A stretch of 64,000 bases of DNA. Source: Natronomonas gomsonensis. GTDB taxonomy: Archaea; Halobacteriota; Halobacteria; Halobacteriales; Haloarculaceae. Of this stretch, positions 48,071 through 57,116 are shown one piece after another. The stretch spans positions 2,170,001-2,234,000 of the forward strand of contig NZ_CP101323.1 of assembly GCF_024300825.1 (NCBI RefSeq). Direction: 5' to 3'. The notes beneath the pieces were generated by a model that made no database searches, was not told the DNA's origin, and saw only the letters and a list, made by a program, of their open reading frames with translations. How positions within the stretch are numbered: position 1 is the stretch's first letter; every line of letters starts with the position of its first letter. Both the position numbers and the translations under genes were made by a program.

Positions 48071-48135
48071 GGTTAGTTGACGGAAATAGCGGGTCGGAAC
48101 TGATACGCGCTTCGCTCCGAACTTTTTACGCCTCG

Positions 48136-48207
48136 GGTGCGCCTCCGGCGCACCGCGTGGCTGCTCTGCCGCCACGACATGCGGTTGCGGGCCACAGGCC
48201 CGCAACC
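48136..48207. repeat. GC-rich hairpins between rlmE and lpdA
   Basis: Two perfect short-loop hairpins are visible: GGTGCGCC-tcc-GGCGCACC (48136-48154) and GGTTGCGGGCC-aca-GGCCCGCAACC (48183-48207). A weaker CGTGGC/GCCACG stem (48156-48176) sits between them. The 3-nt loops match those of the larger cluster at 51.6-51.9 kb. The gap lies between two divergent genes, so these are not terminators for either. Confidence 0.7.
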
Positions 48208-48299: not shown

Positions 48300-49724
48300 A
48301 TGGTCGTAGGAGACATCGCAACCGGAACGGAGGTACTGGTCATCGGCGGCGGCCCGGGCGGCTACGTCGCCGCGATTCGCGCCGGGCAACTCGGGTTGGA
48401 CGTGACGCTCGTTGAGAAGGACGCCTACGGCGGCACCTGTCTCAACACGGGCTGTATCCCATCGAAGGCGCTCGTCCACGCGACCGATGTCGCCCACGAG
48501 GCACGTGGCGCCGAACACATGGGCGTCTACGCCGACCCGGCGGTCGACCTCCAGGGGATGGTCGACTGGAAGGACGGCGTCGTCGACCAACTCACGAGCG
48601 GCGTCGAGAAACTGTGCAAGGCAAACGGAGTCAACCTCGTCCCCGGCCGCGCGGAGTTCGTCAGCGACGACACGGTCCGCGTCGCCCACGGCGGCGAGGG
48701 GCAGGGCAGCGAATCTATCGAGTTCGAACACGCCATCGTCGCGACGGGGAGCCGTCCCATCCAGTTGCCGGGCTTCGAGTTCGACGACGACCGCATCCTC
48801 GACTCCAGCGGCTTGTTGTCGCTGACCGAACTCCCGGATTCCCTGCTCGTCGTCGGCGGCGGCTACATCGGCATGGAACTGTCGACGGTGCTGGCGAAAC
48901 TCGGCTGTGAGGTGACCGTCGTCGAGATGCTCGACGACATCCTGCCGGGCTACGAGGACGACGTGACCCGCGTCGTCCGCGAGCGTGCCGAGGAGTTGGG
49001 CATACAGTTCCACTTCGGCGAGGCCGCCCAACAGTGGGAGGACACTGGCACCGATGCTTTCGTCACGACCGAGGACGAGGACGGCGAGACCCACGAGTAC
49101 ACCGCCGAGAAGGTGCTCGTCGCCGTCGGCCGCCAGCCCGTCACCGACACCGTCGGACTCGACGCCATCGGGCTCGAAACCGCCGAGGACGGCACCATCG
49201 AGACCGACGACCAGGCCCGAAGCAGCGTCGAGAACGTCTTCGCCGTCGGCGACGTGGCCGGCGAGCCGATGTTGGCCCACAAGGCGTACAAGGAGGGTCA
49301 CGTCGCCGCCGAGGTCATCGCCGGCGAACCCGCGGCCCTGGATTATCAGGCTGTCCCGGCAGCGGTCTTCACCGACCCCGAAATCGGCACCGTCGGCATG
49401 ACCGAAGCCGACGCCGCCGACGCCGGTTTCGACCCCGTCGTCGGCGAGATGCCGCTTCGGGCCTCCGGACGCGCGCTCACGCTCGACGAATCAGATGGGT
49501 TCGTCCGAATCATCGCCGACGCCGAAACCGAGTTCGTCCTCGGTGCCCAAATCGTCGCCCCCGAGGCCTCGGAACTCATCGCCGAGGTCGGCCTCGCCAT
49601 CGAGATGGGCGCCCAACTCGAAGACATCGCTGCGACCATCCACACCCACCCGACGCTGTCGGAAGCCGTCGCCGAGGCCGCCGCCAACGCCCGCGGCGAA
49701 GCGACACACACGCTGAATCGGTAG
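48300..49724 (+). CDS. lpdA: Dihydrolipoyl dehydrogenase (E3)
   Basis: The 474-residue flavoenzyme reoxidises dihydrolipoamide on the E2 subunit and makes NADH. The FAD site is VLVIGGGPGGYVAAIRAGQ, the redox-active disulfide is Cys47-Cys52 in GGTCLNTGCIPSK, the NAD site is LLVVGGGYIGMELSTVLAK, and the second FAD motif is ENVFAVGDVAGEPMLAHKA. The dimer-interface His is in THPTLSEAVAEA. It starts at ATG 48300; a TTTTTAA element about 30 nt upstream is a possible TATA box. It is alone here, about 10 kb from pdhABC, unlike the four-gene operons of some haloarchaea. Confidence 0.96.
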   Translation: MVVGDIATGTEVLVIGGGPGGYVAAIRAGQLGLDVTLVEKDAYGGTCLNTGCIPSKALVHATDVAHEARGAEHMGVYADPAVDLQGMVDWKDGVVDQLTSGVEKLCKANGVNLVPGRAEFVSDDTVRVAHGGEGQGSESIEFEHAIVATGSRPIQLPGFEFDDDRILDSSGLLSLTELPDSLLVVGGGYIGMELSTVLAKLGCEVTVVEMLDDILPGYEDDVTRVVRERAEELGIQFHFGEAAQQWEDTGTDAFVTTEDEDGETHEYTAEKVLVAVGRQPVTDTVGLDAIGLETAEDGTIETDDQARSSVENVFAVGDVAGEPMLAHKAYKEGHVAAEVIAGEPAALDYQAVPAAVFTDPEIGTVGMTEADAADAGFDPVVGEMPLRASGRALTLDESDGFVRIIADAETEFVLGAQIVAPEASELIAEVGLAIEMGAQLEDIAATIHTHPTLSEAVAEAAANARGEATHTLNR

Positions 49725-50842: not shown

Positions 50843-51550
50843 ATGTCGAATACTCCGGGGGACTTCGACCCAGAGTCACACGAGGAACGCGAGATTGCTG
50901 GTGAGGCGGCAACTGACCGGTCTGATTTTCTATCACTCATGGGCCACGCCTACCGTGGTGAGATGAGCCGCACTACGGCGTGGCGCACACGAATCGACCG
51001 GACGACGAACTGGGCGGTCGTGTTGACAGCGACGTTGCTCACGTGGGCGTTTTCGGCGGAATCACGGCCACACTACATCCTCCTTATCGGTATCGTCATG
51101 CTGACGGTGTTTCTGGGAATCGAAACCCGTCGCTATCGCGTGTACGACATCTGGCGCTCTCGGGTGCGGATTCTCGAAGAGAACGTGTTCGCAAACGCAC
51201 TCGACTCGGACGGCGTAGAGCAATCGAACTGGCGCGAACTTCTCAGCGACGATTTACGAGCGCCGGCGGTGAAAACGCCGATAATCGAGGCAGTATCCCG
51301 CCGACTTCGACGGGTGTATTTCGCGCTCATCTCGGTGCTGGTTGTCGCCTGGCTCGTTCGGTTGACCGTCTTCGCAACCACGTCGGCCGGACTTATCGAG
51401 ACTGCGACCGTCGGCAGAGTGCCGGGAGTAGTCGTCCTCGGGGGTATCGCGGTGTACTACGCCTGTGGAATCGTACTGACGCTCTGGCCGGGAAGACGGA
51501 AGGCGAAGGGTGAGTTGCAGTCACGGCCTGCGAACGAAGAGTGGAAATAA
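50843..51550 (+). CDS. DUF2270 membrane protein
   Basis: The 235-residue protein has the DUF2270 core LMGHAYRGEMSRTTAWRTRIDRTTNWAV (shown here in two adjoining parts), where the first membrane helix follows. Helices lie at about residues 57-75, 80-97, 157-180 and 195-218. A helical cytoplasmic region between helices two and three contains RRYRVYDIWRSRVRILEEN. The function of DUF2270 is unknown. I use ATG 50843 (MSNTPGD); an ATG at 50834 is possible. It converges on the thermosome gene across the hairpin-rich gap. Confidence 0.85.
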   Translation: MSNTPGDFDPESHEEREIAGEAATDRSDFLSLMGHAYRGEMSRTTAWRTRIDRTTNWAVVLTATLLTWAFSAESRPHYILLIGIVMLTVFLGIETRRYRVYDIWRSRVRILEENVFANALDSDGVEQSNWRELLSDDLRAPAVKTPIIEAVSRRLRRVYFALISVLVVAWLVRLTVFATTSAGLIETATVGRVPGVVVLGGIAVYYACGIVLTLWPGRRKAKGELQSRPANEEWK

Positions 51551-51872
51551 GACCCGTCCGCTGACTGGTACATTCCGACACCAGTTCTGTGTCACTACAA
51601 AAACGGATATCCGCGAGGGAAGCGAGCGGTTCTCCCGAACTCGGCCTTCGGCCTCGTTCGGGTAGCGACGAGTGACCGGAGGGAACGAGTCGCTATGTTT
51701 CACGGCGCCGGAGGCGCCGTTCAACAGTCCGAGGCGGCTTCGCCGCCTCGCTATTTTTCCCCAAGTTTTTGCCTGGGTCGCGGGCTCTGCCCGCGACCTT
51801 ATAACGTGGCGGCGAAGCCGCCACGCTGACCGAGCGGCCCGGAGGGCCGCGAGGGAAGTGCAAAAAGTGGGT
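51551..51872. repeat. Gene-free gap containing a run of seven GC-rich hairpins
   Basis: No open frame here looks coding. Seven inverted repeats occur in order: 51634-51662 (CCCGAAC stem with an inner stem), 51663-51695 (TAGCGAC stem), 51702-51720 (ACGGCGCC, loop gga), 51730-51750 (CGAGGCGGC, loop ttc), 51776-51798 (GGTCGCGGGC, loop tct), 51805-51825 (CGTGGCGGC, loop gaa) and 51834-51850 (GCGGCCC, loop gga). The last five are perfect stems of 7-10 bp with 3-nt loops. The gap separates the convergent 3' ends of the DUF2270 and thermosome genes, so termination is one possible role, but one hairpin would suffice for that. Confidence 0.85.
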
Positions 51873-53549
51873 TTACATCATGCCGCCCATGCCGCCACCC
51901 ATGCCGCCCATGCCGCCGGGGGCGCCGCCCGGGCCGCCTTCTTCCTCTTCACCTTCCGTGGAGAGGTCGCCGGCAGCGATGATGTCGTCAATCTTGAGCA
52001 CGAGGTTCGCGGCCTCGGTGGCCGACGAGAGTGCTTGCTGTTTCGCGTGGGCCGGTTCGACGACGCCGGCGTCGTAGGTGTCGACCACGTCGCCGGTGAA
52101 CACGTTGAGGCCGGCGGTTTCGTCGCCGCTCTCGTGGGCCGAACGCAGGTCGACGAGCGTGTCGATAGAGTCGAGACCGGCGTTTTCGGCCAGCACGCGC
52201 GGGACGAGTTCGAGCGCGTCGGCGAAGGCCTCGACGGCCAACTGTTCGCGGCCGGAGACGCTGTCGGCGTAATCACGGACGCGGCGGGCGACTTCGACCT
52301 CGACGGCGCCACCGCCGGCCAGCACGCGGCCGTCGGAGACGGTCTGAGAGACCACGTCGAGGGCGTCGCCGATACCGCGTTCGAGTTCATCGACGACGTG
52401 TTCGGTCGAGCCGCGGAGCAACAGCGTCACGCCGTGGCTCTCGTCGCCGGTGCCTTCGACGTAGAACAGTTCGTCGGCCTCGTCGAACTCGACGGAGGCG
52501 GAGCCGAGGTCCTCGGCGGTGAGCGTATCGAGGTCCGAGACGATGTTCGCCTCGGTCACCTCACGCAGGAAGCCGAGGTCGGTCTTCTTGACGCGGGAGG
52601 TCGCGAGGATGCCCTCCTTGGCGAGGAAGTGCTCTGCGAGGTCGTCGATGCCTTTCTGACAGAAGACGACGTCGGCGCCGGAGTCGGCGATTTTGTCGAC
52701 CTTCTCCCGGAGCTGTTCTTCCTCCTGGTCGAGGAACTGCTGGAGCTGGTCGGGGCTGTCGAGTTGGACGCTGGCGTCGGCGTCGGTCTCCTCGACCTCG
52801 ATGGGTTCGTTGATGAGGAGCACGTCGGCGTCGTCGAACTGCGTCGGCATGTCGGCGTGGGCCGGGTCCTTGTCGATGACCGCGCCTTCGAGCAGTTCGC
52901 TCTCGCTGGCCGAGCGCCCGGTCTGGGTCTCGATGTTGACGTACTCGAGGTCGACGATGGTCTCGCCGTCGTCGGCCTCGACGGTGACGGCCTGGACGGC
53001 GTCGACGACGAGTTGGGCGAGAACGTCCTTGTTGAGTTCGGCGCCCTTGCCGGTCATCGATGTCTCGGCGACTTTCTTGATGAGTTCGGTGTCCTCGGGG
53101 TCGACCTGACGGGCCACGTTGTCGATTTCGGCGCGGGCCTGCTCGCTGGCGAGGTGGAAGCCCTTGATGATGGCCGTCGGGTGGATGTCCTGCTCAAGGA
53201 GGTCCTCGGCGTTCTTCAGGAGTTCGCCGGCGATGGAGACGGCGGTGGTCGTACCGTCGCCCGCCTCGTCTTCCTGTGTCTCGGCGACCTCGACGATCAT
53301 CGAGGCCGTCGGGTTGTCGATGTCCATCTCTTCGAGGATGGTGACGCCGTCGTTCGTGACGGTGATGTCACCCATCGAGGAGACGAGCATCTTGTCCATC
53401 CCTTTCGGGCCGAGTGTCGAGCGTACGGCCTCTGCGACCGCACGCGCCGCCGAGATGTTGTGGCTCTGGGCGTCGCGGTCCTTCATCCGCTGGGAATCCT
53501 CGCCGAGAATAATCATCGGCTGACCTCCCATTCGCTGCTGTTGGCTCAT
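51873..53549 (-). CDS. Thermosome subunit (group II chaperonin)
   Basis: The 558-residue chaperonin subunit folds proteins in an ATP-driven double ring. Family motifs are [48 protein letters not shown] and [16 protein letters not shown]. The C-terminal tail is rich in Gly-Gly-Met repeats ([14 protein letters not shown]), as in haloarchaeal thermosomes and GroEL. Whether this is the alpha, beta or gamma subunit cannot be told from one sequence. A TATA element 28-35 nt before ATG 53549 indicates a leaderless, probably heat-responsive transcript. Confidence 0.96.
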
Positions 53550-53576
53550 AGTCGTCCGAATGATTGTCCACGGTTC

Positions 53577-53584
53577 TATATAAA
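53577..53584 (-). promoter_or_regulatory. TATA element of the thermosome gene
   Basis: The minus strand reads TTTATATA, a near-ideal archaeal TATA box, 28-35 nt upstream of the start codon at 53549. The remainder of the gap to the tRNA gene (53585-53835) has no gene I can support. Confidence 0.75.
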
Positions 53585-53835
53585 TGTATCTGATACGGAC
53601 CGATGCCGATTGAAGATGGCACTCGGCAGTAAACGGGAAGAACCGTCGTACTGCGGCGCTGTGTGAACGATTGTCTCGGCCTACATTCCGACGATGCGAC
53701 GAACCGATTCGTGTCGCTACTGACGGGGTTTATTACAGGTGAGTGGTCAGCTTCGATTCGACCCGAAACGGTGGAGGTCACGCCGAGACGAATCAGCGGA
53801 GCCGCTTTGCTCCTCACGTTGGGTCGTCGCAAAAG

Positions 53836-53916
53836 CGCCGGGACAGGGATTTGAACCCTGGATCCCTGAGGGAACACGCTTTCCAGGCGTGCGCCTTACC
53901 ACTCGGCCATCCCGGC
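53836..53916 (-). tRNA. tRNA-Ser (anticodon GGA)
   Basis: The minus strand folds into a class II tRNA. The 7-bp acceptor stem is GCCGGGA with TCCCGGC, the discriminator base is G (53836), the D arm is GCCGAGTGGTAAGGC, and the anticodon arm is CACGC-CTGGAAA-GCGTG giving anticodon GGA. A long variable arm is present, and the T arm is CAGGG-TTCAAAT-CCCTG. The long variable arm and G discriminator both identify serine. There is no intron and no encoded CCA. A CTTTT run follows the 3' end. Confidence 0.96.
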
Positions 53917-56995: not shown

Positions 56996-57116
56996 TACCG
57001 GATGGGGGTGTTCCGGGTCAATAAACCCGACCTTTTTCGTCGTCGGGCTCGCGTTTTGCGCGAACCGCTCGCTCGGCTCGCGGATGCTGGCCGTGGATTC
57101 AGGTCGTTTCGACCGG

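Follow-up and report, generated by a model that had tools for sequence, protein, structure and literature searches.

How do seven hairpins come to stand one behind another within 217 bp (51634-51850) beside the thermosome gene of Natronomonas gomsonensis, and what keeps them there? Analysing the 64,000-nt stretch of DNA that contains them (hereafter the window), we found that they belong to one copy of an element that is dispersed, lies here on the minus strand and recurs at haloarchaeal gene ends. On balance, we favour reading it as a terminator element at gene ends, based on oligo-T and probably working in both directions, with hairpins that arise and persist at the DNA level through template switching. 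The original prediction foresaw neither a scattered repeat whose skeleton is fixed nor the other subtypes and plain T-tracts that occupy the same site in relatives.

Inspection of the letters and a listing of triloop stems established that all seven hairpins are real, and the loops gga, ttc, tct, gaa and gga of the five perfect 7-10 bp stems were re-found exactly. The original prediction had assigned 3-nt loops to only five of the seven, but triloops are present in 7/7; it had also placed the array before the thermosome gene, which is encoded on the minus strand, so that the array in fact lies downstream (3′) of it. The array does lie between convergent genes, as had been proposed, with the plus-strand ORF on its other side ending at 51550. 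The thermosome gene has a 97% match in Natronomonas sp. CBA1123, as befits a haloarchaeon close to Natronomonas. Antisense to it runs an open frame of 664 codons (51672-53666), which exceeds the gene in length and is a trap for automatic gene calling, and a minus-strand tRNA gene (53836-53916) sits directly upstream of the thermosome gene. The 64 kb window contains 17 perfect triloop stems of at least 7 bp; five lie within the array, and the remaining 12 are scattered across 63.8 kb, which by our own arithmetic gives about 0.04 expected per 217 bp. HP1, HP2, HP3 and HP7 are longer quasi-palindromes with symmetric TC/TC or GA/GA mismatches. Folding extends the structure past the array, to 51871 and to 51608, and yields one closed stem (P1) with three hairpins inside, then four hairpins in a row and a terminal partial hairpin. 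The thermosome gene and the parts of this copy, which starts directly after the stop codon of that gene, are as follows.

51873-53549, minus strand: thermosome gene, ending directly beside the array.
51608-51871, minus strand: whole element (one copy), sense being the thermosome gene strand; a single fold whose skeleton is common with other copies.
51860-51871, minus strand: P1 5′ arm, CCCAC-TTTTT-GC in sense; its T5 starts 6 nt past the thermosome stop.
51760-51772, minus strand: P1 3′ arm, GC-AAAAA-CT-TGGG in sense; partner of 51860-51871 by folding and by arm covariation in 163 copies.
51754-51770, minus strand: conserved core, AAAAACTTGGGGAAAAA; 31 exact genome matches, backward control 0.
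51830-51854, no strand assigned: HP7, on the plus strand CC-GA-GCGGCCC(gga)GGGCCGC-GA-GG; perfect inner stem of 7 bp at 51834-51850.
51805-51825, no strand assigned: HP6, 9 bp, loop gaa on the plus strand; near-identical in copies L114, L115 and L116.
51776-51798, no strand assigned: HP5, 10 bp, loop tct on the plus strand.
51730-51750, no strand assigned: HP4, 9 bp, loop ttc on the plus strand; identical in the copy at G000:C1:2279166.
51696-51726, no strand assigned: HP3, TGTT-TC-ACGGCGCC(gga)GGCGCCGT-TC-AACA; perfect inner stem of 8 bp at 51702-51720.
51663-51695, no strand assigned: HP2, TAGCGAC-GA-GT-GA-CC(gga)GG-GA-AC-GA-GTCGCTA; GA/GA steps opened by the folding program.
51634-51662, no strand assigned: HP1, CCCGAAC-TC-GGCC(ttc)GGCC-TC-GTTCGGG.
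51611-51633, minus strand: terminal motif GAACCGC...GCGG; inner hairpin weak in this copy.

Measured against 200 dinucleotide-preserving shuffles, the fold gave z-scores of -5.73 (plus strand) and -6.46 (minus strand) as RNA and of -7.95 and -8.07, respectively, as DNA, and no shuffle folded as well as the native sequence in any of the four runs (0/200 in each). These shuffles, with the triloop stem listing, rule out chance or GC content as the cause of the hairpins. The general excess of triloops in intergenic DNA over shuffled sequence is small (14 versus 5.3 per shuffled pass). That census covered 400 kb and was weak, since its crude ORF mask took false antisense ORFs as genes and hid elements beneath them; with a small general excess and elements so masked, the signal is that of the elements and not of all intergenic DNA.

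Comparison of copies by eye, with CCGC...GCGG taken as the end and AAAAACKT-GAAAAA as the core pattern, gave a skeleton that, followed in the coding direction of the upstream gene, reads: P1 5′ arm, TTTTT, hairpin domain H1, AAAAA-C, P1 3′ arm, GAAAAA, more hairpins, GAACCGC-hairpin-GCGGATGCT. Queried with 313 bases, the genome returned the locus itself and six others, the best over 115 bp at 96% identity. The exact core lies 14 times forward and 17 times in reverse in this genome, and shuffling predicts none in the window. GAACCGC-N-GCGGATGCT has 23 genome matches, which do not include the window copy, ending GCGGATATC. Beyond this genome, the core is present in 17/20 genomes of the genus, 56/60 of the family (counted by eye) and 172/293 of the order, for which the backward control gave one match each in eight genomes (control counted by eye). 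Four cores at up to three mismatches were found in a 400 kb sample and none in shuffled sequence, so the exact pattern overlooks some copies. A search of the plasmid collection returned no match, and we found no earlier description of the element in the open-access literature. Elsewhere in the window, 48121-48207 holds a truncated copy (CCGAACTTTTT, then two or three H1-type hairpins, the A5 core absent) flanked by a minus-strand ORF and an ORF starting at 48300. A short derivative at 57029-57088 runs from CGACCTTTTT through one hairpin directly into GAACCGC...GCGGATGCT, which is how a copy would look after loss of the core between two GAACC repeats. Other genomes carry the element in tandem arrays (L269, L270, L272, L274, L275, L276, L284), and in some the repeat unit takes in part of the adjoining gene end.

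The two arms of P1 vary jointly: CCCAC occurs with TTGGG or GTGGG, CGAA with TTCG, CGAC with GTCG, GAAC with GTTC and CCAC with GTGG. From 171 copies we dropped eight without a T5 within 160 bases; in the remaining 163, arms pairing over at least 4 bp make up 93%, against a mean of 30% (maximum 44%) in 1000 arm shuffles, although the copies are kin by descent, so that covariation, hairpin and loop counts here and below are not independent samples. Restricted to the shortest H1, the test comprised 24 distinct copies out of 27 of that length: 94.6% of cells pair versus 79.9% when shuffled (score 0.339 versus 0.094), changes affect both sides in 60 cells and a single side in 1, and sliding the partner columns by 1-3 lowers pairing to 37-50%. 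Columns 1 and 46, which form the outermost pair, are complementary in just 7/24 of these copies. Covariation with relatives, named in the original prediction as a check, is present in the P1 arms in both the 163-copy and the 24-copy tests, and the proposal that what is kept is structure, not sequence, is likewise supported.

A repeat dispersed on both strands, forming tandem arrays and present at some orthologous sites while absent at others (L327, L331 and L339 versus G000/G002), could be a non-autonomous mobile element of the REP/REPIN, PATE or MITE-like kind, its hairpins read by a transposase and gene ends serving as safe landing sites; palindrome-rich PATEs have been described in Haloquadratum (PMC3119063). 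We regard this as unlikely. Copy number does not track the count of Y1 transposases (PF01797) across 20 genomes, several of them incomplete: G009 and G010 (88% and 82% complete) lack Y1 yet carry 12 and 27 copies, and G005 and G006 carry 4 and 3 Y1 genes but 3 and 1 copies. Blastn of 121 copies against eight IS200/IS605 neighbourhoods (G000, G002, G003) gave no similarity at E 1e-3, so that neither these neighbourhoods nor the PF01797 counts lend support to IS200/IS605 mobilisation, and near-terminal palindromes shared with IS605-type transposons, as PATEs have them, were not seen there. The cognate Y1 transposase of a REP/REPIN-RAYT system did not emerge from the comparison of PF01797 counts with copies in the 20 genomes, nor did its shared palindrome, since the stems differ by copy and it is not the palindromes that are fixed; that the stems differ while P1 covaries argues against a mobile element of this kind. 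Terminal inverted repeats, a MITE trait, were not seen by eye in 30 copies, and the empty sites are too diverged to display a target duplication. Among the 80 flank-pair matches of the empty-site search, those listed were diverged or re-occupied sites with no clean insertion boundary; at least 24 flank-pair cases lack an exact core, some being the same site in overlapping loci and several having a degenerate core. These results leave room for mobility by another route.

The terminator reading starts from where the element stands. With genes called by open frame and GC3 rather than by annotation, a stop codon lies 3-10 nt before T5 in 62/117 T5-bearing copies from four genomes (18/30, 17/28, 13/29 and 14/30), versus 6/157 T5 runs outside elements in a 400 kb sample. 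T5 or a longer tract soon after the stop, as in the window copy (+6), is what an oligo-T terminator would present, archaeal transcription being described as terminating at oligo-T (PMC7237163, PMC2253867). An opposite-strand gene start lies on the T5 side of 27% to 31% of copies in the four genomes. In N. gomsonensis itself, 8/30 copies stand before a gene start and not behind a stop codon, so gene ends are not the sole site. Elements are frequently found between convergent genes, and many copies have no convergent neighbour. Some convergent gene pairs (L122, L117 and L194, with partners in G002 and G016) have one element each, the two facing. At the thermosome site, 7 of 15 readable genus genomes have the exact core, G009 has a core with a shortened last A-run, and the other 7/15 show nothing but a plain T-tract, 44-84 nt past the stop; P1 there is of the CCCAC type in G000, G009 and G010 and of the GAAC type in G002, G003, G004, G007 and G011. 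Many different genes precede the element, which rules out thermosome-specific regulation and makes the suggested role as an mRNA 3′-end stabiliser for the thermosome gene unlikely.

Termination is the simplest function that fits, because T5 lies where haloarchaeal terminators are expected, T-tracts point both ways, and a plain T-tract stands at the site in relatives that lack the element. The element would then be mainly a transcription terminator or insulator usable from both sides, the upstream gene being served by T5 and the opposite direction by the hairpins followed by two T5 tracts. A bacterial-type intrinsic terminator (GC hairpin then U-tract) is not present in sense, where T5 precedes the hairpins; the hairpin-then-T order occurs on the antisense strand only. 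A hairpin upstream of the T-tract is described as having no effect in Pyrococcus (PMC2253867) and a plain oligo-T tract is enough at the corresponding site in relatives, so something else must account for the hairpins. They may add insulation against the neighbour or an exonuclease or polymerase block, or may add nothing, being a by-product of template switching.

The hairpins obey a common grammar. Among 369 distinct hairpins from 167 distinct copies, sense-strand loops are TNC in 212 and GNA in 45 (257/369, versus 34/402 in shuffles preserving base composition only), and a C-G pair closes 337/369. The 2x2 mismatches are TC/TC in 186 and GA/GA in 18 cases (204/243; shuffled 4/301). Read on the opposite strand, a TNC loop becomes GNA and a TC/TC mismatch becomes tandem GA. 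In single-stranded DNA, GNA triloops and tandem GA have unusual stability, and extraordinarily stable mini-hairpins exist. This stability would favour the strand antisense to the upstream gene, on which GNA triloops and tandem GA may recur because they stabilise DNA hairpins.

Orthologous sites from four genomes, compared over 43 site pairs that had both flanks and 35 aligned triloop hairpins, revealed how the hairpins change. The loop is unchanged in 25/35 and changed in 10/35, and 6/10 of the changed loops differ as exact reverse complements while the stem is the same in both (TGT/ACA twice, GGA/TCC, AAC/GTT, GCA/TGC and GAC/GTC), none of them in the window copy itself; by our own arithmetic each inversion has a chance of about 1 in 63. 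The window tract shows five differences from its 96% copy, four of them within two loops. Among the matches listed, whole hairpins or the subtype are swapped despite flanks about 93% identical, and hairpin number and content differ freely at one site; the window site is of the TTGGGG type and its counterpart in G002 of the GTTCAT type. Spacer inversion and arm homogenisation are described as signatures of template switching (PMC8604942, PMC8794818), and inversion of a loop in an unchanged stem is what we observe. Polymerase template switching inside hairpins would copy one arm onto the other, leaving perfect stems and flipped loops, and recombination between copies would swap whole blocks; the hairpins would form as single-stranded DNA or as cruciforms. 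Two features sit less easily with template switching: free neutral flipping would even out TNC and GNA loops, which stand at 212 and 45, and template switching alone should erase the TC/TC mismatches, so that their persistence needs the argument from DNA stability. Of the three roles that the original prediction had guessed at, structure at the DNA level is the best supported, loops inverting in place.

Set against this DNA-level account, a structured RNA selected as such (3′ UTR stabiliser, antisense RNA or small RNA) seems to us improbable. The strong covariation would suit it, as would a U-G step that seemingly recurs, by eye, in TTGGGG-type H1, and tandem GA with GNA loops would equally suit an antisense RNA; template switching can yield paired changes, however, so that covariation alone is no proof of RNA function. 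G-T is not commoner than A-C among the 64 single mismatches (13 versus 21), one-sided changes are almost absent, and hairpin number and content vary freely at one site among the matches listed. Rfam returned no family at gathering score and only sub-threshold matches in a relaxed search, which rules out a known RNA family and leaves the suggested structured noncoding RNA, as a member of one, unsupported. A DNA barrier, in which cruciforms or a protein-bound array halt replication forks, RNA polymerase or recombination between convergent genes, has in its favour the DNA z-scores of about -8 on both strands, the frequent convergent setting and the gene pairs with two facing elements, but we hold it to be similarly improbable, as many copies have no convergent neighbour and relatives do without the element.

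The terminator reading with template-switched hairpins can be taken further, if tentatively: the element may represent a class defined not by sequence but by a DNA-hairpin grammar, in which a fixed T5/A5 stem carries exchangeable cassettes that follow GNA-triloop and tandem-GA rules on one strand, undergo continual rewriting by template switching, move from copy to copy and insulate gene ends in both directions in most of the family and much of the order. With 31 exact cores here and related cores in 172/293 genomes, it offers a genome-wide natural experiment on how perfect stems originate and persist, with loops inverting, stems remaining intact and entire hairpins being swapped at a fixed gene-end position. 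It also lends itself to testing how hairpins in DNA arise, persist and are put to use, and is a candidate for separating adjacent transcription units in dense haloarchaeal genomes, relatives without it providing natural controls.

Among known systems, the Haloquadratum PATEs described in PMC3119063 are likewise short, haloarchaeal, palindromic and heterogeneous in sequence and have no transposase gene, whereas the present element sits at gene ends, has a covarying closing stem and bears no likeness to the IS200/IS605 neighbourhoods examined. REP/BIME and REPIN sequences with RAYT resemble it in being dispersed, intergenic, palindromic and mosaic; here there is no fixed palindrome, the fixed parts being the T5/A5 stem and the end motif, and no link of copy number to Y1. 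Archaeal oligo-T terminators, as described for Haloferax termination sites (PMC7237163) and the Pyrococcus histone gene (PMC2253867), also have at least five T behind stops and do not strictly require a hairpin; in the element, the T-tract forms one arm of a stem whose sides covary, up to seven GC hairpins come after it, and T-tracts occur in both directions. Template-switch hairpins and inverted-repeat spacer inversions (PMC8794818, PMC8604942) likewise keep perfect arms and invert loops in place, but the cases described there are single events scattered over rRNA, microRNA and yeast genes, whereas here a whole repeat family consists of such hairpins.
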